Assembly: GCA_009739215.1 (NCBI GenBank)
Contig: VSJF01000017.1
Coordinates: 1 to 64,000, forward strand
Direction of reading: 5' to 3'
Length of the DNA: 64,000 bases
Source: Floccularia luteovirens
Lineage: Eukaryota > Basidiomycota > Agaricomycetes > Agaricales > Squamanitaceae
Shown: piece by piece, positions 35,377 through 63,850 of the stretch
Numbering within the stretch: the first letter of the stretch is position 1
Layout of the letters: each line of letters opens with the position of its first letter
Translations under genes and position numbers: made by a program
The notes under the pieces: generated by a model
Told to the model about the DNA's origin: nothing
Databases searched by the model: none
Seen by the model: the letters and a program-made list of their open reading frames with translations, nothing else

Positions 35377-35549
35377 AGACCTTTGAAACTTCTGGAGATA
35401 CTAGAGGAGCATTTCTAGTTCTGGTCTTTGCATCCTCTGTACTCTATCTATGATATTTAAGTAGCAGTGAAGTTAAGATTGCTGCACCGAGTGACATGTG
35501 ACAGGTGACGCACTGTGAGCTTGTTTAGCCTGGATGCAAGATTCACATG

Positions 35550-36999
35550 ATCATGATGGGATTGAAGATTCATCAATATTGAGACCGTGTACCATTCCTT
35601 CCTTTTGTAGTGCCTGAAGTGCCCCTAATGAAATGTGTCCATATCATCAGTGCCACTGGTCCCAGGTAAGTTTTTGTGTGGATGCATACTGTGTCCTCTC
35701 CTCTCCAGGTAGTTGTGCCCTTGCCTCCAGTAAATATAACCTATTAGTTCTATTTCCTAGTCCAATGATTTTGTTATTTTTGTCCTTCAATAAACACTTT
35801 CCTTCCCTAAATTCTACATGGCCTCCTCCTTCATCAAGTCTGCTGATTGATAATAGGCAGTTTGGTGCCTCAGGAACATGTAGGACATTTTGTAATATGT
35901 GTTTGATATTATTCCCATTTACAGAGAAGTTCACGGCAACAGTGCCTTGTCCTTGTGCACTGATAGGGTCGCTTCCAAGGCCCTGAATTGTGGAGTTTTT
36001 GAGTGGCGTGTACTCCAGGAATGCTTTCTGATTTGTACAAATATGGGAGGTTGATCCGGAGTCCAAGATCCAATCGTATTTGGAAAATTCATGTGAATTC
36101 CCTCCTGTGCTGGTCATGTAAGCAATATCATTGAGTGTATCATTTATGTCATCTGTAGCCTGGTTGGTTCTATTTCCTCAATTTGGGCTGCATCGGCCTT
36201 TAGGACCCTGTCCTTCTCTCCCACCTCCTTTGGCCCAGCAGTCTTATGCTATATGGCCTTTCTTGTGGCAGTTGTAGCATTCTTTGTCTTGTGAGTCATT
36301 ATTTTTGCTGTCTTTGTTTCCCTTGAATTTTCCTTTTGATGCTTGCAGAGTTATCCCATCTGTGGTAAGCTCTCCACTTCTTGCTTGTCGACGCCTGTCT
36401 TCTTCTAACAATATTGCAACTAATTCATGTGATCGCAGGGTCAGTTTATTTCCACTCGATCCAAGGTATGCTGAGGTATAGTTATCCCAGCTTTCTGGTA
36501 ACGAGGTGACTAAAATCATAACGAAGTCTTCATCAGACACTAAATTCTCCATAAGGTGTAGTTCTTCCTGCAGCTTTCGTAATTTTGAGATGTGATCTAT
36601 CATGTCGAAATTTGATTCATCAGCTGTCATTCTGTATAGTGCGCATCTGGTTGCAAGAACACCAAGTCGTCCTCTTGATTCCTTGACCATGGTAAGTTGT
36701 TCCCATATTTCTTGCGCCGTTGTAGCCCCACTAATGTGTATCATCTCTGAATCTCCAATCGATAGCTCTATTCGTGTGCGTGCCCTTGCATCGCCTTCAA
36801 TCCATTTTTGGATAGTTTCAATTTCGGTACTCGTTGGTGCATCGGGGATTGCTGATTCCGGTTTTCTTGCATCCTTTGCAATGAATCATTCCAGTCCGAG
36901 GTCACGCAATACCGCAAGCATTTGTCGCTTCCACGGCATCCAATTGCTGGCCTTCAGCATCTCCATTCGGTAAGATCCCGACGTATATTCTTCTGACAT
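35550..36999 (-). mobile_element. Truncated Ty1/copia retrotransposon (gag-protease fragment)
   Basis: Minus-strand relic of a copia polyprotein. It begins at 36999 (MSEEYTSGSYRMEMLKASNW) with a UBN2-type gag (WEQLTMVKESRGRLGVL; LPESWDNYTSAYLGSS), then a CCHC knuckle CYNCHKKGHIA, the aspartic protease WILDSGSTSHICTN, and the start of a GAG-pre-integrase motif (WH..YGHISLGALQALQKEG) near 35.65-35.56 kb. Stops interrupt it near 36884 (LE*FIAK), 36243 and 36177, and after WDQWH at about 35646. Integrase core, reverse transcriptase and RNase H are absent. It is a dead 5' fragment. It lies between the DUF6534-like genes and the NLR inverted repeat. Confidence 0.88.
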
Positions 37000-37089
37000 G
37001 TTGTACTGATCGTAGATTTATTTGTAGAGGGCGAGTTTTTAGAGTTAAAGTAAGTCTGTTTGATTTATGACCACTCAGGGCCCATAACC

Positions 37090-37254
37090 TATTGAATGAG
37101 GTGCAGTTGGAGGGAAGTTAACAGATAAAATGAATGTAATAATTATGTAGACTACGCATTATGTAGCTACTTAAATACTAATGAATGTTATAGCTTTTTG
37201 GCTGTTCTAATAAATATAATACCCAAGCACTGATAAGCAGTGTTAGGTGCTACA
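37090..37254 (-). repeat. Candidate 5' LTR of the copia relic
   Basis: On the minus strand this stretch starts TGTAGCACC and ends TTCAATA. It is followed directly by GGTTATGGGCCC, which would fit a primer-binding site. The gag start lies about 90 bp further on. No second LTR copy was found in the window, so the LTR call rests on position and end sequence only. Confidence 0.4.
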
Positions 37255-39156
37255 TAAGGATGCGCTATGCAAGGCGCTACATGGGGCGCAGCCTTTGAGT
37301 AAGGCTGCGCATTGCTATCTACTGCGTGTTACTACCTACAACAATGTATGTAATACTACAATCAGGATCCTCACATTCCTCACAGCTACATTGCATGGAC
37401 TAACTTCATCTTCAATCTCCTCAACCTCAATAGAATATGATCTCACTTCTTCGAGTTGATACACTGCCATTGATTGTCATGTTTCTGCAATGCTTTGGAC
37501 TAGACAGAAGATTATTGATTTAGTGAAAAATGGATACAACAGAAGATGCAGCAAGGGTTTGCAAATTGTCAGTATCAACCATCATTCCATACTTCCTTGT
37601 GCCTTCAGTGTGGTTATTGCTATTACTGTAGCTTCTCAGATGTGGCTATATTGTACCATTGAGGGCTAGAGGTAGGTAGAGTTCAGTGAACTTTATACAA
37701 GCCTTGCAAAAAGATGACTGACATGTCGAACTGACAATCAAGGTAATAAGAAAGACCCTAGAACCAGAAAGACAGTTACAGCAGTTGAACAGGGCATAAC
37801 AGTACATTCCACAGTGACACACTCCTGACAGTTCTGTTGAAGTCTAGTTGCATTGCTTTTTAGGTTAGTGTTGGGGTGGTTATGAAGAGATGGGGTGGGA
37901 GTTGAACTTGAAGAAAAAAAATTGCGTAAGTCGAACATTTGAACGACGTGAAATTGCAACTCCGATGGTCACGTGAAATCCGCTGAGATGCAATATCCCT
38001 ATTATATTTGACCCCCAAGGCCGAGGAATTCAAAAAAGTCCAAGTCATTCAGAGATTTTTTGAAGGTAAGAGTCATAGTCAATGCTAGCTAAAAGTGAGG
38101 ATAAAGATTTCTGTACAAAGACTTGAAAGCACAAGTCAAAAGTCAAAGACAATCAAAGTCAAAGCAAAGACACTTAAAGCTGAAACCGAAGACTGTGAAA
38201 GCTAAAGATAGCCAAAGCTGATTCAAAGTTGATGCATTTTTGCTGATGTGAGAAATGGGGATAGACTAAAATGGAACTCGGCGAGGATGTTGGAGCATAT
38301 ACTTAAGATCTGCAGGGCACCAGTTGTGAAAGATCCCCTTACCCATAGAGTGGTTCGTATCACAACATCTCAAGGTGCACGTTTATAATCAAGCAAAATC
38401 GCAAATGGTATCGACAAAAAAGTAGAGCAATATCGTAAGATATGGCAGATAAGATTTACACGTAAATGGGCCCGGGTACTGAGTCTTCTCTTTTCCACAT
38501 ACACCCCCGCCTCGTTGACTCTTAGCTTCATTAAGCTCAAGGGTGGGTGAAATATCCCAGGAAAACAGGTTTGACCAGCAAAAAAAACATTCACATTAAA
38601 AAGCAATGAAGGGTGTACAATTGCCAGGCCGCATTAAGTTTCAATCTTTGAATGAAAAATACACAAGTTGCGCATTTCTATCTACTTAAAAAATGGAAGA
38701 ATCGATGTTTGAAAGTAGTCTGAAGGGTATCCAACTTGTCAATTCTTCCCTATTGAAAATAGAAATGCGGATGACATACTAGGTTGTTGTGGTTCGGTAA
38801 GTACGTACTATCAAAACCCAGAGAACTCTCGAGGATCGAATCAGCCCGTACGTTTGAACTTTGAGTTTCTGGATGAGTATACGACAAATGTTGATGTAGA
38901 GTGTACACTAGAAAATAACATACTATTATATATCACAATATCACGCAAACCACTACCCTACACCACGTAGCATATACTGAAGTAGAACTCGTCAGAAAAG
39001 AAAATGAAAGGAAAATGAATTATGCCAAAAAATGCAACCCCCAGACGGAAGTGCACAGTATGCAGGAAGTACATAAACACGTACTGTTGTTTGGCCTTAG
39101 TATGGACTTGGGTCATTGCTCATCATATAGATTGCATAAGAAATTAGTAGTAGGTC
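37255..39156. other. Gene-poor AT-rich region with a degenerate AAAG-rich repeat
   Basis: No coding region is supported. At about 38085-38230 the plus strand is purine-rich, with a loose repetition of CAAAGTCAAAG / AAAGCTGAAA-type units of 8-12 bp. At 37255-37320 there are short GCGCTACAT / GGCTGCGC repeats. The region ends where the left arm of the large inverted repeat begins. Confidence 0.45.
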
Positions 39157-42100
39157 ACCAGGATTATAGAAAAAAGTGAAGAAAACTCAAAACACACTGA
39201 AATTGAGAATTTTGTGTCAATCGCCGTGTACGCAAGTGATCAGGAGCACCATCACCTAGAAGGTTGAGTTTTCAGTATCGAAAGCTGGGAGAAAGTAATT
39301 ACGAGACACCGACAATAAAAGCAAGGAAGCAAGCCAGCCAACGTCATCGCTACCAAAGTGTGGCCTGTGCAGCCACCACACAACGCCAACGCTCCATTCA
39401 GGTGACGCATGTCAACACTGCACAAAGCCAGCATTTATCAGGTGTCGTATGTGTCGGCTACGAGCCACATGCTTCTGAGTCGAGCTAATTAGTAATCGTT
39501 CCTCATAGAGGCTGACTAGTCTATAAAGGGTTCAGTTGATAACAGAGGTATAACTATGGTGGCAGGCATTTCAACCAAAAAATTGAGGTAAAGATGTCAG
39601 CTGACGGAGGTCATCCAGGCAGTGGCCAGGCAGCCACTACACATCACTAGGGCCATATGATCTGTAGTTAACGCAACACATGTAAAGGATTCAAGACTAT
39701 AGCAGTCTATTATTAGTCGACCAGCCGGTGAGAGACAGTAATAGCGAAGAGATGTAGCCAATTTGTTCCACCTTGATATAAGAAAGGCAAGTATCAGAGT
39801 ATGGTGGGGAATGATGGAGATGGGGAACAACCTGTGGATGACTGTAATTCCAACGAGCCCAAGCCAACTTGAAATGACTTGGAGAAATGGTATGCGGCCT
39901 ATGACAAATGGCACAGGCTAAAAAGCAGTGATTCGAGGGGAGGATGTTGTAGAATGAAGGAAAGAAGGAAAGGGCAATATGCCGTACTTATACCCTGGCG
40001 GATAATAAGGAGGCTGACCTCGCCAACCACTTTCATGTAGATCGGTCCTGGGGATGACGCAAAGTTCCAGATCTTTTCTAGAGAGATACAAAGAATCAAA
40101 TGACAGATGTACCTACCCCTTACTAGTGTTGTTGGTCTCGGCGAAGCTTCAGTGTTCAGTATTCGGTGGTTACTCTAGAATAGTTTGTTATAGTATAGTT
40201 GAAAAAAATGTTGACATGAACTACACTTCAAGAATGCAATTTGGAAATTCAGTTCCTTCGACAGGCCTCTGAGAGATCTACACTTACCTATACAAGTTTA
40301 TAAAGTAGATAGTCAATTGAAATATCTTGCAGTCATGTTCATATGAGTACTTCATAGTTCTAAGTTAAATGCTCTTTCGGATCCATCATGGTACGAATTT
40401 GATCATCTGATCAACCACGTGAACCAACTCAAAAATTGAATCAAACATTGTTCAAAATACAAAGAACTTTAGCATATATATGATAAACAGGTTAGCTGTT
40501 CACATTTTATATATCTCTAACGTGGTTTCTTCCAGCTTCAACAAAAGAAAATGCATCGAGAGTTCAGAATTGTCATTACTAACATACCAACTTTACCTCC
40601 GTATATAGGTACTATCATAGGCGCCTGGAACACAGTGGCAAAGAACCAGCCAAACTGGACACGTGGGTGATGGTGTCAAATAGCTTCCAGCGTCTAGCCA
40701 TACACAGCATGCTTCCTCATTGCAACACAAATAACAATCTGACAGCTATTTTGGAGACCACCAAATATGCCTCCTTCTAAAAGAAACCAGCGGATCAATG
40801 ATATTCTCACTGGCACCAAGCTTGTGCTCGATACGACAAAGGATCTGCTCAACTTGAGCCCTATTCCAGGACTTCCAATTGCTGCATCAGCGCTGTCCGC
40901 AATCATTGGTCTTGTTCTGGTTAGTCTAGTATCACTATGGTCTTCAACGCTAATTAATTATTCTTTTTGTAGAAAACAAGAGGAAATGAAGATGCGCGTG
41001 AGGAACTAGCACAGGTTATCGTATCATTGAAATCTGTCATTGAGGAGACGATGAGGAAAGCAGAGTCTGTGCTGTGGACAGATAACTTGACACGGAACCG
41101 TTTGATGACTTCTCCTGAGCTAAAGGAGCGGGTTTCTACTCTCGAGAAGTTAGTCATTGTCATATTTGATATGTATTTCTCTCATGATCCATTAATCGTA
41201 GCGACCTGAATGGTTTAACTGAGCAAGCAAGGAAGCTGCAGGGAGGATCAGGCATTCGGAATTTCCTGCTCAGTAGTAGAAATGCGGATATATTATTAAA
41301 CTTGAAGACAGGCATCCAGAATGCAACCACCAAATTCCAGGTTTGTTTTAAACTCTAGTGGGTAGCATCTAACTGATAAATCGATAACCCTTTGCAGATA
41401 CAAAGTGGAATCACTGTGGAAATGCTCATAAACGGCGTCGTGGATGATATTGCGGTACCATTTTCCTATTCTCCTGCCTACCATTTCATTGACCAAGGTT
41501 CCCAGCTCATAAAGCTTACGCAGCATCAAGAGCGTCAGTTTTTCTCCCCAATCATCAGGATCGCTTACTTATTGATTACCTTGTAGTCGATGCGAAAGCT
41601 CTTGACAAACTCCCACACGTCAACGCTGGTTACACTTCCGCCTCAAATCCAACAAAGTCGGGCACACTACCCGGTACCAGGACTGCACTGCTTGAAGAAC
41701 TTATGGAATGGACCCTCCGGCCAGACTCAGTCCAGGACGACTCGTTCATGTATGTCGTTAGTGGCGGCGCTGGTACTGGCAAATCCACCATCGCATTCGA
41801 GATGGCTCGCAGATTGGAGGAGGTTGGGGCACTTGGTGCATCATTCTTCTTCGTTAATGGCAACAAGAAATTGAACACAACGAAATATGTCTTGACCACA
41901 ATCGCATATCAACTGGCCCATAAGCAGCCTGATTTGTATCCGCATATAGCAGCAGCAGCTCGATATTACTCAAAGCAAGGCAAAGAAGCCGAACAACTTC
42001 AAGTGGAACTCGAAGACCTCATAATCGAACCACTCATGAATGTCAGTGCGTCGCATCGCCCAATAACCCTGATCCTGGATGCTCTGGATGAATCGGCCCA

Positions 42101-45100
42101 AGATGAGGTTGTTCGACTACTCAATCTCTTGGTTTCGCGGCTTACCGAAATCCCATTTCCTGTGCGAGTTCTGGTAACTACCAGACCAGAAATGCACATT
42201 GAAGATGCTCTCAACACAGAGAAGTTGCGCAAAGTTTCCAAACCATACAAGTTGCATGAAATACCGAGGGAGATTGTTGACGAAGACATCAAGCTTTTCT
42301 TTGAAGCAAAACTGGGGGAATTGAACTGCCGGAGAATAATATTCAGTGCTCGTCCGAATGTTATCGAAGATCTTACGAAACTTGCTGGTGGATTGTTCAT
42401 ATACGCTGACACTGTCGTCAAATTTTTGGGTAGCAAGCCAGATCTTGTGGTTGAAATCCTTGATTCCCTCCTATCCAATGATCCGTCAAACGCAACGTTC
42501 AGTCTGAAGAATCTCGACCGGTTATACATCACTGTGCTACATAGTGCACTTGGCGGTGACGTTTCGGATATGGAGGGGTATATACAGGTTGTACTAGGCA
42601 GCCTTGCTCTGGTTCAAGACAATGTATCGACTGGTGTTCTACAAGATTTAGTTGATATCCCGATAGGATTCATTCGATACGTACTGAGTCGGCTTGGCTC
42701 AGTCATCCTCAAGCCAGAAAATGACGACGTCGATATCCAGGTGCTCCATGCCAGCTTTCCGCAATTTCTCGTCGATAAAAAGCGCTGTAATGATCCCATA
42801 TTCCACATCAACCCTTCCACGCACCACCATCGCCTCGCACTCACTTGCCTGAACATGATGACTGTCAAATCCCCTCTCAGAAGGAACATTTGCAATCTCA
42901 GAGATCCCACAAAGTTGAAGACAAGCTTCCATGGTCTGGATGAGGGCATCCCTGGGAGTGTACAATATTCATGCATCCACTGGGCGACACATTTGTCACG
43001 TTGTGATGTTGCAAGATCAGATATCCTGAATGTAGTGAAGGAATTTACGAGGACAAAGCTACTTGTTTGGGTGGAAGTATTGAGCTACATGGACAAGCTT
43101 GAGGTTGCTGTTCCGGCTTTGCTCACAGCATTGTCGTGGTGTGAGGTATGTAGTTGATTTTGTTCACATGATACAGGAGGAGTTGAGATATTTTTACAAG
43201 GCAAACATACAAGGAGAAGATAGGAATGAAATCCTGCAGCTAATTGATGATGCACACCGCTTGATCTTGCAGTTCTACACACCTATCAATCAATGCCCCG
43301 AGCACATCTACATATCTGCACTCCAACTGGCGCCATCCTGTGTTCTTACGACTCACTACAACAATGCCGAACATATGCCGACCATCAAGCACCCCATCAT
43401 GGAGCTAAGGACACCTCGAGACTTGGCATGGGGTGCTTGTCTCCTAACAATTCCCATGGAATCCAGGTTCTGCCGCGCAATTCTTTCTCCTGACGGCACT
43501 TTGATAGCATCTGGTCTCTCAAGTGGGGAGGTGTGCATATGGGACGCCAGCATTGGACTATCGGGAAGGACCCTGAGAGGGCATACCGAAGGTGTTAAAT
43601 GTGTCGCATGGTCGCCTAACGGGAAGTCTCTTGCTTCTGGGTCTGCCGATGGAACGTTTCGTATTTGGAATCCTACCTCTGGCGCGCAGATACATTGCCA
43701 GCGTACGCAAAAAAGCAGCTGTGGGGTATTTTCTATCTCGTGGAGCCCCGACGGAAAACGGCTGGTTACAGCGTCTGAACCTGGTGGATTACAAGTGTGG
43801 AATATCACTCTTGGTAAGAAGATGAAGCAGCTAATAGCGGTCCCCTCGATAGTGTCAGTGATGGCGATTTCCAAGGATGCATTGCGTGCAGTAGACATCA
43901 CGTACGATAATGTACTTCGGTTCTGGGACATTTCAGGCGATGACGGCAGGATCCTACAGGAGCTTCACCCAAAATCAAGCATAATTACAGCTTTGTTCCT
44001 ACACAACGACAAACAGGTTGCCTTTTTTGGGACAGATAGGAAGATTCGCATATGGGATTTGAAATCGGGCACATCCACTTCCAGGATCGAGCTGAAATCC
44101 AAAGTCACATTCGGGGGCCAGACTTACATATATGGCATTGCTGTCTCTCCAGATGGAAACATTCTTGCATCGTCTACTGCAGATAAAATTCATTTTTTCA
44201 ACACAAGAACATGGGACTCTCTCGGTTCATTCCAAGGCGTCTTTCGTTACACTGCATCATTCTCTCCAGATTGTGGCCGCCTCTTGACATCGTACGACGT
44301 AATCCAGATGTGGGACTCATCTGCAGTTCTCGCTCCAAAACCACAAATCACCCCTTCCATCGCACCCCCAACTACATCATCAATTATGAAACACGACTCA
44401 CTTTTAGCCTATGTTGGTATCTCCCCAGACGGTTCACGTGTTGTTGCTGTGTCCGATGAAGCAGTCAGCATCTGGACCCTTCAATCTGGGTTGCTCTTCT
44501 GTGTTATTCAGGGAGATATCTCCGGTTCTGTTGTCTTTTCTCCCGATTCACACAGGATTGCGGTCGCTGCATATAGGAAAACTTGTATATGGGATATCAC
44601 AACAGCTGAACCTGTTTTAATTCGGACTATTCCAAACGGAAACCATTGGGGTGACAAGATTGCCTGGTCTCCCGACGGGAAATGGATTGCGAGCGTAGCA
44701 AGTGGTCCTGTTACCTCCCGACAGCTCGGTGTCTTCGATGCAATGACGGGTGAACTTGAGATAACTTTTCCGCTCAGCAATAACGAGGGGATATGGGAAG
44801 TAGAATTTTCGTCTGATAGTTCATTGTTATTTGTGGAGTGTGGCACTGATATGGGAGTATTCCGGTGGAAAGAAGGGGAGAGACTTGATATCGATCATTA
44901 TGGGTGGGAAACAGAAAGAGTGTGGAAGATGCGTTATTACCAGGATGGGTGGATCATACGCGAGCGGGACGAAAAGAGATTGTGTTGGGTACCAAGTGTA
45001 AATGCTGATAACATTTCGTGGTGGGGCAGTTACTATGCTGTCGGTAAACTGTCGGGCCAGTTGGAAATTTTGCATATTAGGGATAGTTGATCTGTAATCA

Positions 45101-45732: not shown

Positions 45733-48700
45733 TTATGAATCCCTTGTCGTTTCTACAGAACTTTCCTCAATGTACAAAATATCTAGCTTTCCTGATGTCC
45801 TACCTACGGCATAATAATTACCCCACCGCGCAATAGATTCTGGGTATCTCTCCTGTACCCAACATAATCTCTTCCCGTCCCGCTCGCGTATAATCCATGC
45901 ATCCTTGTGGAAATCTATCCTCCGTTGTCTCTCTGTTTTCCACTTGTGCTGCACGAGGTCGACTTCCTCCCCTTCCTTCCATTTGAATATTGTTTTATCC
46001 TCACCACAGTGGAAATATAACAAAGTGTTGTCATGCGAAAACTCTACTTCCCAAATTCTCTTGTTATTGCTGCGCACCAAATATTTTATGAGTTCGCCCG
46101 TCATTGCATCGAACACACCGAACCCTCGGGTCGTATTAGTACTAGGATCACACGCTGGACTCGCGATCCAAAGTCCATTGGAGGACCAAGCAATTCTATC
46201 TTCCGCACCACCTGCAGTGTATACACTCCGCACCAAAGTAGGGTCCATTGTCGTGATATCCCATATAACAGTCTTGCCATATTCAAGGACCACAATCTTC
46301 TTCGCATCAGGGGAGAAAGCAACATTACCAAGGAAATATCCCCGAAAAATGCATAATAGTGATGCAGATTGCAGAGACCAGATACTGACTGCATCCCGGG
46401 ACACAGCCGCTACTCGTGAGCCGTCCAAAGACATAGCTACGAAATGTATGGGTGAGTCGTGTTTAACAATTGGTGACGATGACGATGGAGGGGATGGTAT
46501 GATTTGTGGTTTTTGTGCACGCACGGAAGACAAGTCAAACATATTGATTGTGGAAAACGATGTCAGGAGGCGATGATCATTGGGAGAGAATGATGCTTTT
46601 CGAAAAGAGCCTTGGAAGGAACCAAGTGAATGCCAGAATTTCGTATCGAGGAAATGTATTCGATCAATTGTAGATAAAGCGAGGGTGTTCCCGTTATGAG
46701 ACAAACTGATGCCGTGGATAAAAGTCTTGCCTTCCTCTGTGACTTCGGGTTCTAGTTCGACCTTGGGAATACATTGGTTTGATTCAAAATCCCACACGTG
46801 GATCCGATTGTCCCGTCCGCAAAAGGCAACCTGCGTGTCATTGTGTAGAAACACAGCTGCATCTACACCAAATTGCACGGGCAGCTCCCACAGAATCTTT
46901 CCATTTTCGCGTTCTATATCCCAAACTCGAAGCGTTGCTGCGTTTTCCCTCCTGTCGACGTCCAGTGCATGACCGAGATCCTCCGATATTGCCAATACTG
47001 TCTCTATTTCGGGAGCTGTCCTCTTCACATTTAGCTTTTCACCGATCACAATGGTCAACACATGTATTCCTCCTGGATTAGCGCAAGTAACAAGCTGTGT
47101 ACCGTCTCGGCTCCACGCTATATCGTACAATTTGCCCTTTGTATTTTGCGCCTCCTGCGTATGCAACTGCCTACCAGATGTCGCATTCCAGATTCGAATC
47201 GTCCCATCGGCCGAACCAGAGGCAAGAAACTCCCCATTAGGGGCCCATGAAACACAGCAGACAGTTTTAGTATGTCCCTTGAAGGTCCCATTCGATGTTC
47301 CGATACTAGCATTCCATATGCACACCTCCCCATTCAATGATCCGGATGCAATCCACCTCCCATTGGGGGAGAGCACTGCGCAACAATGTCCCGCCTCTAT
47401 CGGGATCGTGTAGAGACAAGGACCCCATGCTGAATCTCGAGGCATAAGTGACTTGATAGAATCCTTGTTACGGGTCGGTATGCTGACAAAATTGTTGTGG
47501 TGGACTGTGAGCGCACATGATGGTGCCAGTGGGAGTGCAGATATATATAAGTGTTCGGGACAATCGTTGATAGGTGCATAACACTGTAGAACCAGCCTGT
47601 GTATGTCATTGACTAATTGGATGATTTCGTTCCTATCCCCGCCCTGTATATGAACCTTGCAACAACATTTCAGTTTCCACTGTATTACATCAGTCAATCG
47701 AATCGCACCTCGCACCAGAAAAGCACTGCCAGCAAAGCAGGCACAGCAACCTCAAGCTCGTTCAGGTAACTGAGCACCTCTACCCATACCAGTAGCTGCG
47801 TTCGTGCGAAGTGACTGACTGCATACAAAATGTCTTGATCCGGATCATTGCAGAACGATAGATGAGTGGCCCAATGAATGCACGAGTACCGCAAACTTGA
47901 TTTGATACATTTCTTGACAGCATCGTGCAGATCAGGAATGTCCGATTTCATTATCGTCGGATCATTGAGGTTACAAATGTTCCGTTTGAGAGGATGTCTC
48001 ACAGCCATCACCTCCAAGCAGGTCGATGCCAGGCGATGGTGATGCACGGATGGATCAACGTAAAACTTGGGATCGGTACAGCGCTTTGCATCGATGAGGA
48101 ATTGCGGGAAGCTCCCATGAGGTATTCGAATCTCGACGTCGTCATTTTCTGGCCTCGGGATGACAGAACCAAGCCGAGCTAAAATATCCCGGATAAATCT
48201 CATTGGAACTTCAACCAAATCGTTCAGATCGGATATCGATACATTGACTTGAAGTAAAGCGAGACTGCCAAGTACAATTTGAACATACTTCATCATGTGA
48301 GGAATGTCGAGGCTATCATAACCAAGGTCATGGCTTAACACGGAAATATAGAGCCGGTCGAAATTAATCAAGGTGAATGCCGCATGTGACGGACTGTCAG
48401 TTAAGATGGATCCGAGGATGTCAACTGCGTGATACTGATTTTGATCCAGGAACTTGACGACAGTACTGGCATATAGGAATTGTCCGGCAGCATTATAGGT
48501 AAGGACTTCAACAACATTGGGAAAGGTGCTGAATATCGTCCCCCAGCAGCTGAGATTCCTCAGTCTTGTCTCCAAGAAAAGCTTAATGTCTCCGTCAATG
48601 ATTTGTCTCAGCACTTGATGTAATCTATATTGTTTCGACACGTTGCGAAACTCTTCTGTGCTAAAAGCTGCTTCGATCTCCATTTCTGGTCTGGTGGTAA

Positions 48701-50033
48701 CGAGTATTCGAACAGGAAATGGAATTTCGGGGAGTCGTTCCGTGAAGAGGGAAAGGAGTCGGATAACCCCCTCCTGCGGTGCTTTGGTGCACTCATCGAG
48801 TGCATCAAAAACAAGTGTGATTGGGCGGTGCGATGCCTCAACATTCATTAGTGGCTTGATAATCAAATTTTCGAGGTCCAGCTGAAGATTTACCCCCTGT
48901 TTGCCTTTGCGGCTGTACTCCAGAGCAGCCTTTGCGATGTGAGGATATAGGCTGGTGTGATCATTTGCCAATTGATAGGCGATTGTTGCCAGTACAAGTG
49001 TCGTTGTATTGAGTTTACTTACATCGCGGACAAAGAAAAATGAGGCACCAAGTGCGCCGGCGCCGTCCAGTCTGTAGGCAATCTCGAAAGCGATTGTGGA
49101 TTTACCAGTACCAGCCCCGCCACTTAGGACGTATATGAAAGAGTCATCAGCATTTGTGCGTGACCGGAGAGCCCATTCAGTGATCTCCTGCAGCAATGCG
49201 GTTCGTGTGCCCGGCAGTGTTCCTGAATTTGTTGTTTTTGACGCAGAAGTGTAGCCAGCGTTGACATAGGGGAGACCTCTGAGTGCCTTTTCGTTGACTA
49301 TAAACTGTGTGATGAGACAACAATCTTGATGATTAAGTATTAAGTGAACTTACGCGCGATATCAGTTATAATCTCATTAATCAACATCTCTACAGGTATT
49401 TCACCCTAAATTTTTGTGGTTTCATATGTTAGAACGGAGAGTTGAGTAATTAGTTAGAATCAAGTGCATACCCGGAATCTTGCTGTGGCTTCCCGAATGC
49501 CTGACCTGGTCCCCGATAACATACCCGCATTTTTATTTCTTAACAATAATTCGAGGCGTCCCATTTTAGGGGGTGTAAAATCATTCATCAGGCCGCCGAG
49601 ATCCCTGAGATTATTAAGGTATTAAAAAACCACATGCTAGCAATGATGAAACTTCATTACCTCTGCAGAGTGGCGACCCTAAATATTAATTCAGGTGCAT
49701 TTACCAGACGAGTCCGTATTTTATCGGTTCCTGCAGCAGACTTAGCTTTGTTTGCGGTCTCCACGATAGCTAATGTGAGTTCCAGTACAAGTTTTGCTAT
49801 ATCTTCTCGTGTTCTCCTATTCCCCTTAGTAACCTGACCAAAAGAATAATTGAGTCATTCCTAAAGATAAAGGTAAAACGCACCAAGATCCTATCAATGA
49901 AGGAGGATAATACTGAGATTGTACTCGATAACTCAGGAATAGGAATAAGGTCAGGGCCGGTTACAGTATCAAGATTCTGTTTAGCTACAGTAAGGATGTC
50001 TGTAATACGCTGATCTCGCTCTGCTAGAGGCAT
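45733..50033 (-). pseudogene. NACHT-WD40 NLR E, near-intact with one frameshift
   Basis: Exons: 49884-50033 (MPLAERDQRITDILTV), 49661-49833, 49472-49605, 49354-49405, 47709-49297, 45733-47655. Exon 3 has 134 nt where A, B and F-type phase requires 133 (or another multiple-of-three match). The extra G is in the triple C at 49500-49502, so TRSG is followed by HSGS instead of the expected IREAT, and exon 4 would then meet a stop at once. Every other junction is in phase once this one base is discounted. There is no exon 5. NACHT (SGGAGTGKST, LVFDALDE, TTRPE) and WD40 (WIASGSLNGEVCIWNAS; tail AWIIRERDGKRLCWV) are fully open. It could be a recent pseudogene, a gene starting at an in-frame ATG downstream, or a sequence error. 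Its start codon lies inside the end of the 825-bp palindrome. Confidence 0.8.
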
Positions 50034-50855
50034 TGTTGAGACTATCCTGAATATGGGAGCATTATTATTGTATCACTGGCCACAACGAAGAGACTGGAAA
50101 AGACGTGCCGTATCGATGAGTAAATGTATTGACTATGGTATGGGCAAGGAAAGTAAGAATATGGGGGTAGATATGAAAGCACTAAGAGTAAACCAGGCCA
50201 TCTGCACACGAGTTCTCCTAGAACACTTTCAGAACACTTTCACACCTGTCACGCATCAATGCATCAAGCTTGACATGGACAGCTTGTACGATAAGGTGAG
50301 ATTTGCTACATAATACTACCAAACAAAAGAGGGTTTGAATTTGAATGATACCTATTCTGGAAAACACATTGCAAAGACACCGTGAGAACCTGGACCACTG
50401 TTCGGTAGCACATCTGCACACGCATCAATGCATCAAGCTTGACATGGACAGCTTGTACGATAAGGTGAGATATAATGCTACCGAACAGTGGTCCAGGTTC
50501 TCACGGTGTCTTTGCAATGTGTTTTCCAGAATAGGTATCATTCAAATTCAAACCCTCTTTTGTTTGGTAGTATTATGTAGCAAATCTCACCTTATCGTAC
50601 AAGCTGTCCATGTCAAGCTTGATGCATTGATGCGTGACAGGTGTGAAAGTGTTCTGAAAGTGTTCTAGGAGAACTCGTGTGCAGATGGCCTGGTTTACTC
50701 TTAGTGCTTTCATATCTACCCCCATATTCTTACTTTCCTTGCCCATACCATAGTCAATACATTTACTCATCGATACGGCACGTTTTTTCCAGTCTCTTCG
50801 TTGTGGCCAGTGATACAATAATAATGCTCCCATATTCAGGATAGTCTCAACAATG
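50031..50855. repeat. 825-bp palindrome from start codon to start codon of NLR E and F
   Basis: Position x pairs with 100886-x. Arms 50031-50410 and 50476-50855 match over 380 bp with one mismatch that I can find (50102/50784) and no gaps. The loop 50411-50475 contains a third, direct copy (50420-50471) of a 52-bp segment found in the left arm at 50251-50302 and inverted at 50584-50635. The outermost bases on both sides are the two start codons (CAT at 50031-50033, ATG at 50853-50855), so each NLR has the same upstream DNA. The arm ends carry the NLR promoter element also present at A and B. It is expected to act as a mirrored bidirectional promoter. Confidence 0.95.
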
Positions 50856-53800
50856 TCTGCAGTTCAACGTACTGGCATTGAAATCCTGAATCTGGCAATG
50901 AAAACTATTGATCGTTTACAGCCTCTACTCAACCTAGCTCCTGTACCTGGTTTATCGAGTGCTGCTTCATCATTGTCTGCCCTTATCGAACTATTTCTGG
51001 TGCGTCCATAACAAAAAAATTTCTGCCTCTGTACATGATCAAATAATCTGGTTGATCAGACTGCCGACCAGAATACAGAAACAATAAGAGAAATAGCAAA
51101 TAGGATAGACAACCTCATATCGATCATCCAGGATACTGCAGACAAGGCCCAATCTGTTTCGGCAACTGGTGATAGAAAGTTACGGGATAGTCTAGCAGAT
51201 TCGCCCAAACTAAAAGAGAGGATTGATGCTCTCAAACAGTGAGTTCCCATGATAATTACTGTGTCTTGCTTAGACTCATTAACCGCAGGGAACTAGATCG
51301 ACTAAGGGAAATGGCAATACCTAAAAAGGGATGCCTCAGAATACTGTGCAGCGTTAAAAATTCAAATACGCTATTGAGGATCAATCAGGGTATTGATCAA
51401 GCCATAACAAATTTCCGGGTATGCAATTGATTCTAAATGACTGGTCAGATCCTGACATGATATTGACAGACTCGAGGTGGTATCAGCGTAGAATTGGCGA
51501 TCAACAACATCGTAAAAGCTTTCGAGGTATGAATCCTTTTCTCTGTCATTGGAAAATCATATTAATCTGAATTTTGAAATAAAGGATGGACGTAAGTTCC
51601 TCTTCCTATGATTATCAAGACTGTCAACTCATCGTACACTTGTAGTTGACGAAGAGGCGCTGAAAAATATCCCACGTGTCAATGCTAGCTACTCTTCTGG
51701 CAAGATTCTAAACATTACAGGAACACTGGGTGAAACCCGAGCCGAATTGCTCAAAGATATCATTCAATGGTCTCTACGGCTACAAACGGATGCTGATACT
51801 ACTTTCATATGCGTACTCCGTGGCTGGGTTGGCACTGGTAAATCTGCTATTGCTTTCGAGATTGCTAAAAGATTGAAGAAGGCCGGAAGACTTGGCGCCT
51901 CATTTTTCTTTGTCCGCGGCAAAAGCGATTTCAACACAACGACATATGTGCTAACATCGATTGCTTATCAATTGGCGTACAACCAAAAGCCTAGCCTATA
52001 CCCTTACATGGCGAAAGCTGTTCGAGAGTATTATCAGAAAGGAAAGGAGGGGGAAAAACTTGACATGGACCTCGAAAACCTAATTATCAAAGCACTGAAG
52101 AATGTCAAGGAACACCACCCAATCGTGCTTGTGTTGGATGCACTCGATGAGTGCACTCCAGCAGCTCAGGATGAGATTATCCGACTTCTTTCCCTCTTCA
52201 TGGAACGGCTCCCCGAAATCCCATTTCCTGTCCGGGTGTTTGTCACCACTAGGCCAGAAATGAAGCTCGATAATGCACTAAACACTGACAAGCTCCTTAA
52301 AGTGTCGAAATCATTCAGTTTACATGAAATACCGGAAGAGATTGCCCACAGAGACATCAAACTTTTTCTAGGCACCAGACTCTCGGAGCTCGACTGCTGG
52401 AACACCGTATTGAGTCGGATTCCCAATATTGTCGAAGACCTTACTAATGTTGCTGCTGGACTATTCATGTATGCCGACATTGTCATCAAATTACTAAAAG
52501 ATAACAAAAACACCGTCACCGATGTTCTCGATGCTCTTCTATCCGGCAATCCAGCAAAGTCACTCACTATATCAAACCTGGACGAAATATATAACATTGT
52601 ATTAGAGAATGCATTGGATAGCATCCAGGTTAATAAGACAAAGGAGTATATTCCGGTTGTACTAGGCAGTCTTGCGTTGCTTCAAGATCAGATATCGACG
52701 TCCGCCCTGAATGATTTGGTTGGTGTTCCGGAACGTTATATCCACGAAATTGTAGGCCGGCTTGGTTCGGTCATCCTGAAGCCAAAAGAAAACAACGTCA
52801 GAATTCGAATTTTGCATGCGAGCTTTCCACAATTCCTCGTTCATAAAGATCATTGTATCAACAGGTTCTACATCGACCCGCCTAAACATCACAAGCGTCT
52901 GGCCTTGGCCTGTCTGAATGCGATGAACAAACTCGAAAGGAATATTTGTAAACTCGACGATCCGACAATAATGAAATCAAACAACTCTGCCCTGCGCGAT
53001 ACTGTCAACGTAAGTGTCCACCCAAGTTTACGTTACTCGTGTGTCCACTGGATCACGCATCTATCCCTATGCGAAGAGTCTGGTCCGGATATCCTGGATG
53101 CAGTAATAAATTTCGCACGAACGAAACTTCTAGAATGGGTGGAGGTCCTCAGTTATATGGAGCAGCTTGAGGTTGCTGTTCCTTCTTTGCTTGCGGCACT
53201 TTCATGGTGTGAGGTGAGTATTAGATTGATTCAAGTAATATAAGATAAGTTCAAATATTGTCGTTAGGTTCACATGCAGGACGAGGACAGAAATGAGACA
53301 GTCCAGTTAATCGATGACATGCACCGACTGGTTCTACGATGTTACTCACCTATCAATAATTGTCCAGAACACCTATACATTTCTGCATTCCCGCTAGCTC
53401 CATCATGTCCTTTCACCAATCGCTACACCGATTCTGTCAGCAAACCGACCCGTAACAAGGCTTCTATTAAGTCACTGATGCTTCGGAATACAGAGTGGGG
53501 TCCTCGTCTCCACACGATCCCAATAAATGCAATGAATTGTTGCGCAGTACTTTCCACCACTGGAAAGTTGATTGCGTCCGGGTCGTCAAATGGAGAGGTG
53601 TGCATATGGGATGCCAGCATCGGATTACTGAAGAGGACCCTAAAGGGACATACCAAAAGTGTCTGCTGTGTTTCATGGGCCCCCGATGGGGAGTCGCTTG
53701 CCTCTGGTTCGGCTGATGGGACGATTTGTGTTTGGAATGCGATATCTGGTACGGTGGTGCATACCCAAACAGTGCAAACCCAGGAAGTGCAAAGTACAGA

Positions 53801-55211
53801 ATTCAGCGTGGACGTTATAGCATGGAGTCGAGACGGAAGGCAGCTTGTTACTTGTGCTAATCCAGGAGGAGTACAGGTATGGGACATTGTAATTGGTAAA
53901 GAGCTGAAGATGAAGAGGACATTTCCTGCAATAACGACGGTGTTAGCGATATCGGAGGATGTGGGGCGTGCACTAGAAACAGTGCTAGTCATGCCAGAGT
54001 ACCCAGGTCATACTACACTAGTCCGGGAGTCGGTCACAAGAAAGCTTCGAGTTTGGGATATCGGGTCGGACGAGAACAAGATTCCTCTCGAGCTACCTTT
54101 GAAATTCTTCGTGGAGGCAGCTGTGTTTCTATCCAACGGCACTCAGATTGCCTTATCTGGGTATGATGATGTAATTCACGTGTGGGACCTGGTATCGGGT
54201 AACTGCACTTCCAAATTCACACCCGAATCCAAGTTGGGCCATACTCCGAGACATAGGAAAGGCATGGCCGTGTCCAAAAAAGGAACTCTCGCCTCGTCTT
54301 TTGGGGGCCAAATCCATTTCTTCAATACGAAATCCTGGAATAGGAGCGGCTCCTTCAAAGGCTCTTTTCACAAAAGCGCATCATTTTCTCCCGATGATCG
54401 TCACCTTCTGACGTCGTTTGTTACAATCGAGTTGTGGGACACATTTGCAGTACTTTCACCAAAACCAGAAATCACATCATCCACTCCATCATCATCGTCA
54501 ACACCAGCCGCAAATTTTGTACATGGCACAAACATACATTTCGTAGCTGTGTCCTCGAAAGGCTCGCGAGTAGCCGCTGTGTCTGATGATGCAGTCAGTA
54601 TCTGGTCTCTCGAATCTCCATCACAAAACACACACGTCATTCCGGGAAGGATCGCTGGTAACATCGCCTTCTCCCCTGACGCGCAGAAGATTGCAGTCCC
54701 TGAATTTGACCTAACTCGTATATGGGATATCTCAAAAGTCCGGCCCACTTTAGAACAGAGCATCTTAACTAAACAGGACTCCAATACCATAGTCGCATGG
54801 TCTCCAGACGGACGTTTGATTGCGGGTCCAACGAGCTTTGGGCTGGGTGTGTTCAATATGGGGGAGGATGGCAAACTTGAAAAGCAGCTTGTGTTCAGTG
54901 GCACGCTTTCAGATTTAGAGTTTTCTGCTGACAACACAATGTTATACGCAAAATGTAACACAGCTGAGGCAATATTCGAATTGAAGGAAGGGAAGGAAGT
55001 CGAACTCGGGAAGCACCGGTGGGTGACGGAAATAGGCAGGAGGAAGCGTTTCCACAATGATGCATGGATTGTATGTGAAGACAATGGAAAGAGATTATTT
55101 TGGGTAGAACAGAGACACCTTCCCAGCATTTCGCGGTGGAACAACTTTTTTGTTGTGGGTAAGGACTCAGGCAAGCTAGATATTTTGCGCGTCGAGGAAA
55201 GTTCGACATGA
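50853..55211 (+). CDS. NACHT-WD40 NLR protein F (1343 aa, intact)
   Basis: Exons: 50853-50999, 51060-51238, 51289-51418, 51470-51526, 51585-51591 (a 7-nt micro-exon), 51646-53213, 53268-55211; 1343 aa in one frame. The N-terminal helical domain begins MSAVQRTGIEILNLAMKTI, with LAPVPGLSSAASSLSALIEL. The NACHT has a slightly altered but valid Walker A, RGWVGTGKSA, plus LVLDALDE and TTRPEMKLD. The WD40 domain has LIASGSSNGEVCIWDAS and LASGSADGTICVWNAI, and an insertion (TVLVMPEYPGHTTLVRES) absent from B. The tail is AWIVCEDNGKRLFWV. The micro-exon was chosen because the paralogues have a 28-nt exon 5 in the same phase there. Divergent from E across the palindrome, which supplies its whole 5' region up to the ATG. 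Downstream it is followed by the NLR relic at 56.0-57.6 kb. Confidence 0.9.
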
Positions 55212-57898: not shown

Positions 57899-60800
57899 TT
57901 ATGGACTTGTTGCTACAGTACTGTCCTCGATATGCAAAATCTCCAGCTGGCCCGAATGTTTGCCGACAGCATAGTAATTGCCCCACCACGAAACATTGTC
58001 AGGGTTTACACTAGATACCCAACACAACCTCTTTCCGTCCTGCTCGCGTATAATCCACCCATCCTGGTAATAGCGTACCCTTCTCCCTCTTTCTGTTTGC
58101 CACCCATAACGATCGACATCGACTTGCTCCCCTTCTTTCCACCGGAACACCCCCACATCCACATCGCACTGCACATATAACATTGAACTGTCATGCGAAA
58201 ACTCTATGTCCCAAATCTCCTCGTTATTGTTGAGTGCCAGACTTTTCTCGAGTTCACCCGTCACTGCATCAAATACACCGAGCTGTCGAGAGGTAACAGG
58301 GCCACTTGCTGCACCTGAAATCCAATTTCCGTCGGGCGACCATGCAATCTTGTCACACCAATGGTTTCCATTTGAAATAGTCAGAACCAAAACAGGTTGT
58401 TCGGGTGTTGTGATATCCCATATACAAGTTTTTTCATATGCAGCGACTGCAATCCTATCTGGGGAAACAGTAACAAAGGTTATAAGTGAGTCATGCTTTA
58501 TAACAGATGATGTTGGAGAGATTATGGAAGGGGTTATTTGTGGTTTCGGAGCGAGCACTGTGGACGAGTCCCACATTTGAATTACTTCAGACGATGTCAG
58601 GAGGCGGCCACAATCGGGAGATAATGATGCAGTGTAACGGAAGACACCTTGGATTGAACCGAGAGAGTCCCATGTTTTTGTATTGAAAAAATGAATTTTA
58701 TCTGCAGTAGACGATGCAAGAATGTTTCCATCCGGAGACGCAGCGATGCCATAGATATACGTCTGGCCCCCAAATGTGACTTTAGATTCAAGCTCGATCT
58801 TGGGTGCACATTCGCCCGATTTCAAATCCCATATGCGAATCATCTTATCTGTACCAAAAAAGGCGAGCTGCGTGTTGTTGTGTAGAAACAGAGCCGTGAC
58901 TACGCTCGATCTTGGGTGCAGCTCCTTTAAAATCCTGCCATTGTCGCATGAGATGTCCCAAAACCGAAGTATACCATTGTGCGTGATGTCTACTGCTCGT
59001 AGCGCATCCTTAGATATCGCAATCACTAGCACTATCGAAGGGTAGGTTATTATCTGTTTCACCTCCTTGCCAATCGTGACATTCCACACTTGCAGTCCAG
59101 CAGATTCAGCTGCTGTAACGAGCCGTTGTCCGTCTTGACTCCACAAGATAGAATATACTCCACTACTACCGCTTTGGGTGTACTGGGAATGTATCTGCGC
59201 GCCAGAGGTAGTATTCCAGATCCGAAATGTCCCATCGGTAGACCCAGAAGCAAGAGACTTCCCGTTAGGCGACCATGCGACGCATCTAACACCTTGAGTA
59301 TGCCCTCTCAGTGTCCTCCTCGACAATCCAATGCTGGCGTCCCATATGCACACATCCCCACTTGGGGAACCAGAGGCTATCAGGGCGCCATCGGGAGAGA
59401 GGATTGCGCGGCATAATTTGGATTCCATGGGAATTGTTAGGAGACAAGCACCCCATGCCGAATCCCGGGGTGACTTCAACTCTATGATGGGATGTTTGGC
59501 GGTTGGCATGTTATCAGCGTTGTTGTAGTGAGTCGTAAGAGCACAAGATGGCGCCAGTTTGAGCGCAGATATGTAGAGGTGCTCGGGGCACTGGTTGATA
59601 GGTTTATAGAACTGCAAGATCAGACGGTGTGCGTCATCAATTAGCTGAAGGATTTCATTTCGATCTCCTCCTTGAATTTTTGCCTTGTAACATTCTCTCA
59701 GTTCCTCCTATATTATGTGGGTAAAACAAACTACATACCTCACACCACGACAATGCTGTGAGCAAAGCTGGAACAGCAACCTCAAGCTTGTCCATGTAGC
59801 TCAACACTTCCACCCGAACAAGTAACTTGGTCTTCGTGAACTTCTTCACTACATTCAGGATATCTGACCTTGCAACATCACAACGTGACAAATGTGTCGC
59901 CCAGTGGATGCATGAATATTGTACACTCCCAGGGATGCCCTCATCTAGACCATGGAAGCTTGACTTCAACTTTGTGGGATCTCTGAGATTGCAAATGTTC
60001 CTTCTGAGTGGGGATTTGACAGTCATCATGTTCAGGCAAGTGAGTGCGAGGCGATGGTAGTGCGTGGAAGGGTTGATGTGGAATATGGGATCATTACAGC
60101 GCTTTTTATCGACGAGAAATTGCGGAAAGCTGGCGTGAAGCACCTGGATATCGACGTCGTCATTTTCTGGCTTGAGGATGACCGAGCCAAGCCGACTCAG
60201 TATGTATCGAATGAATCCTATCGGAACATCAACTAAATCTTCTAGAACAGCAGTCGATACATTGTCTTGAACCAGAGCAAGGCTGCCTAGTACAACCTGA
60301 ATATACCTTTTCATATCCGAAACGTCACTGCTGAGTGCACTGCGTAGCACAGCAATATACAACTGGTCGAGATTCTTCAGACTGAACGTTACATTCGATG
60401 GATCATTGGATAAGAGGGAATCAAGGATTTCAACCACAAGATCTGGCTTGCTACCCAAAAATTTGACGACAGTGTCAGCGTATATGAACAATCCACCAGC
60501 AAGTTTGATAAGATCTTCGATAACATTCGGACGAGCACTGAATATTATTCTCCGGCAGTTCAATTCCCCCAGTTTTGCTTCAAAGAAAAGCTTGATGTCT
60601 TCATCAACAATCTCCCTCGGTATTTCATGCAATTTGTATGGTTTGGAAACTTTGCGCAACTTCTCTGTATTGAGAGCATCTTCAATGTGCATTTCTGGTC
60701 TGGTAGTTACCAGAACTCGCACAGGAAATGGGATTTCGGTAAGCCGCGAGACCAAGAGATTGAGTAGTCGAACAACCTCATCTTGGGCCGATTCATCCAG

Positions 60801-62109
60801 AGCATCCAGGATCAGGGTTATTGGGCGATGCGACGCACTAACATTCATGAGTGGTTCGATTATGAGGTCTTCGAGTTCCACTTGAAGTTGTTCGGCTTCT
60901 TTGCCTTGCTTTGAGTAATATCGAGCTGCTGCTGCTATATGCGGATACAAATCAGGCCGCTTATGGGCCAGTTGATATGCGATTGTGGTCAAGACATATT
61001 TCGTTGTGTTCAATTTCTTGTTGCCATTAACGAAGAAGAATGATGCACCAAGTGCCCCAACCTCCTCCAATCTGCGAGCCATCTCGAATGCGATGGTGGA
61101 TTTACCAGCGCCAGCGCCGCCACTAACGACATACATGAACGAGTCGTCCTGGACTGAGTCTGGCCGGAGGGTCCATTCCATAAGTTCTTCAAGCAGTGCA
61201 GTCCTGGTACCCGGTAGTGTGCCCGACTTTGTTGGATTTGAGGCGGAAGTGTAACCAGCGTTGACGTGTGGGAGCTTGTCAAGAGCTTTCGCATCGACTA
61301 CAAGGTAATCAATAAGTAAGCGATCCTGATGATTGGGGAGAAAAACTGACGCTCTTGATGCTGCGTAAGCTTTATGAGCTTTGAACTTTGGTCAATAAAA
61401 TGGTAGGCAGGAGAATAGGAAAATGGTACTGCAATATCATCCACGACGCCGTTAATGAGCATTTCCACAGTGATTCCACTTTGTATCTGCGAAGGGTTAT
61501 CGATTTGTCAGTTAGATGCTACCCACTAGATTTTAAACAAACCTGGAATTTGGTGGTTGCATTCTGGATGCCTGTCTTTAAATTCAACAATATATCCGCA
61601 TTTCTACTACTGAGCAGGAAATTCCGAATGCCTGATCCTTCCTGCAGCTTCTTTGCTTGCTCAGCTAGACCATTCAGGTCGCTACGATTAACAGATCATG
61701 AGAGAAATACACATCAAATATGACAATGACTAACTTCTCGAGAGTAGAAACCCGCTCCTTTAGCTCAGGAGAAGTCATCAAACGGTTTCGTGTCAAGTTA
61801 TCTGTCCGCAGCACAGACTCTGCTTTCCTCATCGTCTCCTCAATGACAGATTTCAATGATACGATGACCTGTGCTAGTTCCTCACGCGCATCTTCATTTC
61901 CTCTTGTTTTCTACAAAAAGATTAGCGTTGAAGACGCATAGTGATACTAGACTAACCAGAACAAGACCAATGATTGCGGACAGTGCTGATGCAGCAATTG
62001 GAAGTCCTGGAATAGGGCTCAAGTTGAGTAGGTCCTTTGTCGTATCGAGCACAAGCTTGGTGCCAGTGAGAATATCATTAATCCGCTGGTTTCTTTTAGA
62101 AGGAGGCAT
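57899..62109 (-). CDS. NACHT-WD40 NLR protein D (1298 aa, right arm, one WD blade shorter)
   Basis: Exons: 61957-62109, 61735-61910, 61543-61681, 61430-61486, 61351-61378, 59739-61297, 57899-59683; 1298 aa, open throughout. Exon sizes 1-6 equal those of C exactly. The N-terminal domain of exon 1 is identical in sequence to C (MPPSKRNQRINDIL..). Walker A reads SGGAGAGKST (Thr to Ala against C), still a valid P-loop. In the WD40 exon, C has VGISPDGSRVV..SPDSHRIAV where D has VTVSPDRIAV. Forty-one residues, about one WD repeat, are missing in frame between two SPD motifs. The tail is GWIIREQDGKRLCWV, with six extra C-terminal residues compared with C. Expected role as for C; the altered propeller could change ligand choice. 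Confidence 0.93.
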
Positions 62110-63369
62110 ATTTGGTGGTCTCCGGAACAGCTGCCAGATTGTTATTTATGTTGCAATGAGGGAGTGCTGTGTATGGCTAGACGCTGGAAGCTATTTGACA
62201 CCATCACCTCACGTGTCCAGTTTGGCTGATTCTTTGCCAGTGTGTTCCAGGCGCCTATGATAGTACCTATATACGAAGGTAAAGTTGGTATGTTAGTGAC
62301 AATTCTGAACTCTCGATGTATATTCTTTTGTTGAAACTGGAAGAAACCACGTTAGAGATATATAGAATGTGCATGTGAGCAGATAACCTGTTTATCATAT
62401 GCTAAAGTTCTTTGTATTTTGAACAATGTTTGAATCAATTTTTGAGTTGGTTCACATCGTTGATCAGATGATCAAATTCGTCCCATGATGGATCCAAAAA
62501 GAGCATTTAACTTAAGTCAGAACTATGACACTTATATGGACATGACTGCAAGATATTTCAATTGACTATCTACTTTATAAACTTGTATAGGTAAGTGTAG
62601 ATCTCTCAGCGGCCTGTCGAAGGAACTGAATTTCCAAATTGCATTCTTGAAGTGTAGTTCATGTTAACATTTTTTTCAACTATACTATAACAAATTATTC
62701 CAGAGTAACCACCGAATGCTGAATATTTAAGCTTCAGCGAGGCCAACAACACTAGTAAGGGGTAGGTACATCTGTCATTTGATTCTTTGTATCTCTCTAG
62801 AAAAGATCTGGAACTTTGCGTCATCCCCAGGACCGATCTACATGAAACTGGTTGGCGAGGTCAGCCTCCTTATTATCCGCCAGGGTATAAATACGGCATA
62901 TTGCCCTTTCCTTCTTTCCTTCATTCTACAACATCCTCCCTTGAATCACTGCTTTCTAGCCAGTGCCACTTGTCATAGGCCACACACCACTTTTCTCATT
63001 TGGAGTTAGCCTGGGCTTGCTAGAAGTATTACAGTCATCAACAATTCGTTCTGCATCTCCATCGTTCCCCGCCGCATCCCGATACTTCCCTTTCTTTATA
63101 TCAAAGTGGGAACAAATTTGCTACATCTCTTCCTCTTTACTATCTCTCGCCAGCTGGTCGACCACTGATAGACTGCTATAGTCTCGAATCGTGTGTTGCG
63201 TTAACTGCAGATCATGCAGCCCTGACGATGTGTGGTGGCTGCCTGGCCACTGCCTGGATGGCATTCGTCAGCCCACATCTTCACTTCAATTTTTTGGTAA
63301 GTGCCTGCCACCATAGTTATACCTCTATTCTTATCAAGTGAACTCTTTATAGACTAGTCAGCCTCTAAT

Positions 63370-63850
63370 AGGGACACCTACTAATTAGCACAACCCAGAA
63401 GCATGTGGCATGTAGCCGACACATACGACACCTGATAAGTGCTGGCTTTGTGCAGTGTTAACATGCGTCACCTGAATGGAGCTCTGGCGTTGTGTGGTGG
63501 CTGCACAGGTCACACTTTGATAGCGTTGACGTTGGTCTGGCTTGCATCCTTGCTCTGATTGTCGGTTCGTGTCTACCCCCCTATTATCATTCTTCGATTA
63601 GTGTTCAACTTTGATTTACAGCTACTGGTAGCTTCCTCATGGCAAAGTGTGTGAGCGGACATAAACAGGAACAACCTAGTACATGTGGTATGAAGTCGGC
63701 ATATAGCGACACCTGATTAGTGTTAGATCTGTGCAGTGTTAACATGCGTCACCTGAATGAAGCGTTGGGGTTGTGTGGCGGCTGCACAGGCCACATTTTG
63801 GTAGCGTTGACGTTAGCTGGCTTGTTTCCTTGCTCTAATTGTCGGTGTGT
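63370..63850. repeat. 281-bp tandem duplication in right arm only
   Basis: Two direct copies with a period of about 281 bp. The block TGCAGTGTTAACATGCGTCA starts at 63451 and again at 63732, each followed by a CACCTGAATG motif and a GGCTGCACAGG block. The left arm has one inverted copy (about 39310-39480). The two units have diverged by many substitutions, so the duplication is not recent. No coding potential seen. Confidence 0.8.

Follow-up and report, generated by a model that had tools for sequence, protein, structure and literature searches.

A near-perfect palindrome between the start codons of two unlike NLR genes of Floccularia luteovirens, and its possible origin by fold-back copying of a promoter

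Two NLR genes of the fungus Floccularia luteovirens, here called B and C, lie close together in divergent orientation, both with NACHT and WD40 exons, and the DNA between them is a palindrome. Several questions arise. Are the genes copies of one another? If not, how did their upstream regions come to be mirror images? Which gene supplied it, and is the arrangement genuine? A gene falling under the control of its neighbour is seldom caught in the act. The B/C locus is a recent-looking case, at which the marks of the copying event are apparently still legible and, if real, it makes the acquisition of a neighbour's promoter by a receptor a testable question. The window is the whole stretch of 64,000 nucleotides that was analysed, bases 1-64000 of contig C9 (75,918 bp), in an assembly of 27.0 Mb and 22 contigs.

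A sequence-only reading of the window had described a near-perfect palindrome running from one ATG to the other, giving both genes identical upstream DNA with similarity lost inside the coding regions. This is borne out to the base. The two arms of 380 nt carry a single mismatch, G at 50102 against 50784, and the spacer of 65 nt is asymmetric (Table 1). The arms terminate at the start codons, that of gene B at 50033-50031 on the minus strand and that of gene C at 50853-50855 on the plus strand, with 819 bp from ATG to ATG, and the first pair beyond them, 50030/50856, is mismatched. Called more broadly, the arms are 50028-50410 and 50476-50858, 383 nt at 99%. Identity is 99.7% across the arms and 69.3% over the first 150 coding nucleotides of B and C. 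When 325,601 bases were scanned by k-mers for inverted repeats (arms of at least 60 nt, identity of at least 85%, spacer of up to 2 kb), six were returned, of which this palindrome is the longest and the most identical; the remaining five all lie at C8:173-207k. The scan covered contig C9, C8:50001-239683 and two parts of contig C7, with some DNA counted twice as C9 overlaps both. Open reading frames in the palindrome are short only, a mirrored pair of 86 aa in the arms, antisense to genes B and C (50053-50313, plus; 50573-50833, minus), and one of 107 aa across the spacer. They are probably due to chance, and the idea of a conserved frame within the arms was rejected.

Table 1. Positions in the window of the palindrome, its parts and the surrounding genes
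Feature	Position	Strand	Remarks
Gene A block	39308..44429		inverted paralogue of gene D block, 91% over 5.1 kb
Gene B, NACHT-WD40 NLR	45733..50033	-	four 5' introns placed by eye
Outer exit motif (proposed), gene B start	50028..50041	-	TCTCAACAATGCCT
Left arm	50031..50410	-	gene B upstream DNA and ATG, sense on minus strand
Start-proximal block before gene B	50031..50145	-	G1 75%, C7:85582 71% over nearly equal stretch
Third copy (partial, direct) of arm segment 50241-50325	50409..50487	+	86% over 86 columns
Spacer	50411..50475		65 nt, asymmetric
Right arm	50476..50855	+	mirror of left-arm 380 bp; gene C upstream DNA and ATG
Inverted microhomology, proposed fold-back point	50476..50487	+	TGCTACCGAACA versus TACTACCAAACA in copy 1, 10/12
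Start-proximal block before gene C	50741..50855	+	mirror of gene B block
Outer exit motif (proposed), gene C start	50845..50858	+	TCTCAACAATGTCT
Gene C, NACHT-WD40 NLR, non-sister to B	50853..55211	+	five 5' introns placed by eye
Gene D block	58458..63566		inverted paralogue of gene A block; both outside the B/C pair

The gene models of B and C are likely, since their 5' frames are open once the introns placed by eye are removed and an intron-like gap between the NACHT and WD40 exons occurs at the same place in all six NLR genes inspected, B included. An alignment of their NACHT-WD40 parts gives 70.1% identity. When the coding sequence of B is searched against its own genome, C appears in row 34 of 40 (69%), and the best other locus by bits reaches 78%; with C as the query, B appears in row 21 of 56 (69%) and the best other locus by bits reaches 71%. 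The rows include the query itself and duplicate contigs, and the searches scored 40 of 108 candidates for B and 40 of 99 for C. The AU test rejects a clade of B and C in a tree of 10 distinct NLR genes (p = 0.0027). A placing of B beside the NLR gene G1 and C beside G2 is allowed (p = 0.43) though not required, the inner branches of this tree being mostly weakly supported. An inverted duplication of the whole gene is thus rejected by the tree test and the low mutual ranks, and the upstream DNA and the genes differ in history.

The wider family is large in this genome, with 127 NPHP3_N matches, a count that includes genes broken into two matches and stretches where contigs overlap. The N-terminal 246-250 aa of the two proteins match no Pfam family above its cut-off; this region may resemble an MLKL-type four-helix domain. 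Among the best 120 of 605 protein matches to the gene C NACHT exon the top one shares 39% identity, the named sequences near the top are from the polypore fungi Wolfiporia, Ganoderma, Postia and Cerrena, and one ascomycete, Triangularia, stands lower; the pattern probably reflects an agaricomycete with no near kin among these listed proteins.

About 110 bp of each arm, adjoining the ATG, is related to the DNA upstream of other NLR genes, with z scores of 6.4-13.9 for five of the six genes compared (300 mononucleotide shuffles each; genes A and D were excluded from promoter comparisons as their start codons were not placed). Gene E is the exception (z 1.6). The distal part of the arm, some 257-265 bp, displays at most weak similarity to the same six upstream regions (z 0.1-3.2); gap-rich alignments continue into it but there consist mostly of gaps. 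Blocks common to several NLR genes in the upstream alignment are CATACCATAGTC and ATCGATACGG-AC. On the basis of this resemblance the core promoter probably sits inside each arm. A search of the genome with the arms finds, elsewhere, only start-proximal matches of 116-118 bp at 71-75%, and a second full copy of the palindrome was not found in the 27-Mb assembly. These results bear on the idea that a fold-back transposable element was inserted between the genes. Long inverted repeats around a short loop would suit such an element, but the ends of this one would include both start codons, the start-proximal 115 bp of its arms resemble NLR upstream regions and the genome search finds no second full copy. 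We reject this explanation as scarcely credible.

The spacer holds a feature absent from the sequence-only reading, a third and partial copy of an arm segment, in direct orientation. The core of this copy, 50419-50471, is identical to 50250-50302 at 53 of 53 positions; it carries a 7-nt deletion relative to the arm segment, and its tail reaches 12 nt into the right arm. If the third copy is native upstream DNA, then its tail and the inner end of the left arm would constitute a short imperfect inverted repeat with a loop of 65 nt, from which fold-backs commonly begin, and the tail of the native spacer is predicted to have been ACTACCAAACA-like. The microhomology had to be reconstructed from the third copy because the native tail would have been overwritten. 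Over its initial 12 nt the right arm agrees with the predicted tail at 10 positions, a comparison with a reconstruction and not with parent sequence; 0.24% of 20,000 random 12-mers from C9 match equally well.

The outer ends are also informative. The 11-mer TCTCAACAATG is common to both exit motifs and to several NLR starts. The assembly contains 11 exact copies of TCTCAACAATGYCT, against two of a reversed-pattern control, and six of the 11 sites coincide with NLR starts (those of B, C, G1, the duplicate of G1 on contig C8, C7:242550 and C7:153524), the other five lying away from any of the NPHP3_N matches. The base that follows the ATG is T in gene C and in five of the seven other aligned genes, and C in gene B and G1. 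The palindrome ends at a homologous codon in the two genes. This is expected where a copied end leaves its template at a sequence common to both, for which the 11-mer is a candidate, and is not expected of a blind copy.

These observations lead us to regard it as reasonably probable that fold-back (template-switch) synthesis placed a reversed copy of one promoter before the other gene and exited at homologous start-codon DNA. In the prior state, unlike NLR genes would have stood head to head, their start-proximal DNA inverted and some 70-75% related. A break in the DNA separating the genes, or a fork stalled there, would expose one strand of a promoter, more likely that of B. The strand end would fold on the imperfect inverted repeat of approximately 12 nt, at a distance of 65 nt, and prime synthesis along itself, producing a mirror of 377 bp of upstream DNA. 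On reaching the TCTCAACAATG start-codon block the new end would quit its template and join the homologous start of the other gene. The promoter of that gene would be replaced, leaving B and C with an equal promoter, 5' leader and control.

A second head-to-head NLR pair on C9, G1 and G2, has its intergenic space at 3588-4888 of the window, 1.3 kb from ATG to ATG. The start-proximal upstream blocks of the pair are inverted and diverged, with a blastn match that ends about 85 bp from the ATGs, and the pair may represent the state before mirroring. It also bears on a second possibility, that the promoters of a head-to-head pair, old and inverted, were equalised by gene conversion; the sequence-only reading had named conversion as what keeps the arms equal, as the alternative to a copied and flipped promoter. 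The related inverted blocks of G1 and G2 are of the kind that conversion could act upon, and conversion is expected to stop where exon 1 diverges. The distal arm offers little sequence to convert, however, since the 257 bp tested are at most weakly similar to the six paralogue upstream regions, and the third copy that makes up the 65-nt spacer is left unexplained. Given that the G1/G2 match extends for only some 85 bp and the distal arm is at most weakly paralogue-like, conversion alone is the poorer origin, and we think it improbable as such, although it may maintain the identity of the arms. A copied and flipped promoter is the best-supported of the two proposals, both by the non-sister relationship of B and C and by the marks of fold-back in the spacer.

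Under fold-back copying, which gene was the donor? Gene B is the more likely source of the promoter of C, though the signs are weak. Its upstream block and exon 1 are continuous in the manner of G1, both proteins beginning MPL, and gene E, the best coding relative of C, is without the start-proximal block. Against this, G1 is the next relative of C and does have the block. Two further approaches gave no answer. Both bases of the single arm mismatch are present among the aligned paralogues, and the palindrome promoter is about equally like that of G1 (score 302) and G2 (300). A ranking of paralogues by B-side versus C-side bits would be circular, since promoter bases contribute to these bits.

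The surroundings of the pair suggest another history. Blocks A and D flank B and C as inverted copies, an arrangement that fold-back copying leaves unexplained. A large inverted duplication might have turned A-B-promoter into A B P / P' B' A', with gene C later taking the place of the coding part of B' by recombination at the start codon; what survives of the centre would be the palindrome, its arms kept equal by conversion. Measured in 250-bp windows, A and D are 79-90% identical across the outer flank (38.5-40.0 kb) and 79-89% in the WD40 part; of the 12 windows from 40.0 to 43.0 kb, 11 stand at 95-99% and one at 91%. Such a patchwork fits patchy conversion within an old inverted repeat. The outer flanks, on the other hand, suggest an event older than the nearly identical arms, the gap between C and D has no blastn match to the gap between A and B (E 1e-8) and the swap of an entire 4.4-kb gene is also required. 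We judge a large duplication to be unlikely, though it is the foremost rival of fold-back copying. The A/D pattern is also as if the sensor repeats diversify with the remainder conserved or converted. Parts of the 2.6 kb between C and D match other places at 68-79%, a few short ones reaching 92%.

Could the palindrome be an artefact of assembly, a mirror made by a fold-back or chimeric read? Contig C9 agrees with C8 over 1-35518 (C8:87062-122579, 99.92%) and with the end of C7 over 51640-75918 (99.89%). For the 16 kb in between, which carry A, B, the palindrome and the first part of C, C9 is the only contig; C9 departs from C8 at 35518, and C7 stops at C9:51640, about 785 bp past the gene C ATG. 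Contig C8 itself contains a giant inverted repeat, 50001-77658 against 122576-150236, 99.97% identical over 27.7 kb around a 45-kb loop, and a further fold-back stretch (36606-40605 against 160001-164000, 99%). The giant repeat may be a fold-back misassembly, for C9 at 35518 contradicts the junction. There are then structural doubts about the assembly here, but of a kind that would not easily make the B/C palindrome. A fold-back read would give gene B on both sides and the flanks are actually about 69% alike, the right flank being that of C7 from 51640; the arms end at start codons and the spacer is asymmetric. The C9 consensus looks sound where it can be compared, with three differences from C7 over 51640-70000 and 13 from C8 over 2387-35518. 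An artefact is accordingly a quite improbable explanation.

Two adjoining dispersed repeats occupy 35515-38249, where C9 leaves C8. They include a match to a copia-type gag at 36244-36744 and an end piece of 254 nt, at about 37090-37343, that recurs at no fewer than 10 places in the genome. C9 and C7 differ by 27 one-base indels, 25 of which fall in the last 6 kb of C9 (C9:70284-75468), so the frames of the last NLR gene, F, are unreliable on this contig.

With 819 bp between the ATGs, all the upstream DNA of B and C is either palindrome or the other gene. As this short space also holds the conserved block of about 110 bp in each arm, symmetric co-expression of the two receptors, as the sequence-only reading proposed, is plausible from the sequence. 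An upstream ATG is placed at -29 before both genes. Equal upstream DNA predicts an equal response and identical 5' leaders. The further suggestion was that a transcript crossing the palindrome would fold into a long hairpin and might feed RNA silencing. The single-strand fold has a calculated energy of -753 kcal/mol, whereas 20 dinucleotide shuffles average -214, and would apply only to a transcript that crosses the centre. The normal mRNAs of B and C would not pair, because leaders that start inside the arms share sense and are not complementary. Silencing fed by such a hairpin is speculation.

If fold-back copying is correct, it may have placed two unlike receptors under one switch. We offer, tentatively and as a possibility that may well prove not to be general, that such promoter mirroring is a one-step route by which NLR clusters acquire co-regulated head-to-head pairs of non-sister genes. 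The conserved start-codon blocks would then serve as landing sites and mirrored promoters would tend to end at the next ATG.

Related processes are known. In yeast, hairpins with small or large loops prime fold-back synthesis that is resolved mostly by homology, as passages of PMC7467729 describe, and the human inverted duplications treated in parts of PMC3907307 have spacers with 2-8 bp of inverted microhomology. The B/C palindrome resembles the fold-back inversions of these accounts in its spacer, its reconstructed edge microhomology, its adjacent mirror copy and its proposed homology-guided exit, a route often taken in those cases. It differs in consisting of 377 bp plus an ATG, in involving upstream regulatory DNA and in being intergenic and not at a chromosome end, whereas the yeast and human cases, as there presented, are gross rearrangements. 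A polymerase of Saccharomyces cerevisiae can also switch strand within a short inverted repeat and so equalise its arms (PMC8604942). The switching described there alters a few bases within genes; here about 380 bp are mirrored and the upstream DNA of a gene is seemingly replaced.

Origin-dependent inverted-repeat amplification (ODIRA) generates inverted copies via template switching at replication forks. It is described for interstitial inverted triplications, and the B/C palindrome comprises two full copies with a partial third. The hsp70 pair of Drosophila consists of inverted gene copies held alike by gene conversion. There the genes themselves are alike, whereas B and C are unlike and the upstream DNA alone is alike. 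Passages of PMC2871787 state that gene conversion constrains the evolution of hsp70.

Agaricomycetes are rich in NLR genes, with 72 hits per species according to passages of PMC4986451. Head-to-head NLR pairs occur in plants, where the members often have diverged and share a promoter; in Sordariales, with 13 of 225 two-gene clusters, such pairs are described as rare (passages of PMC12258605). Like the paired NLRs of that account, B and C are diverged, stand back to back and have common upstream DNA. The plant pairs often share one promoter, while B and C each own a mirror copy of one upstream region. Among the literature matches listed, which are no proof of absence, we recognised neither a palindrome coinciding exactly with the upstream DNA that separates two NLR start codons nor a promoter-only palindrome between other divergent genes. 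Fold-back palindromes and head-to-head NLR pairs are both already known.
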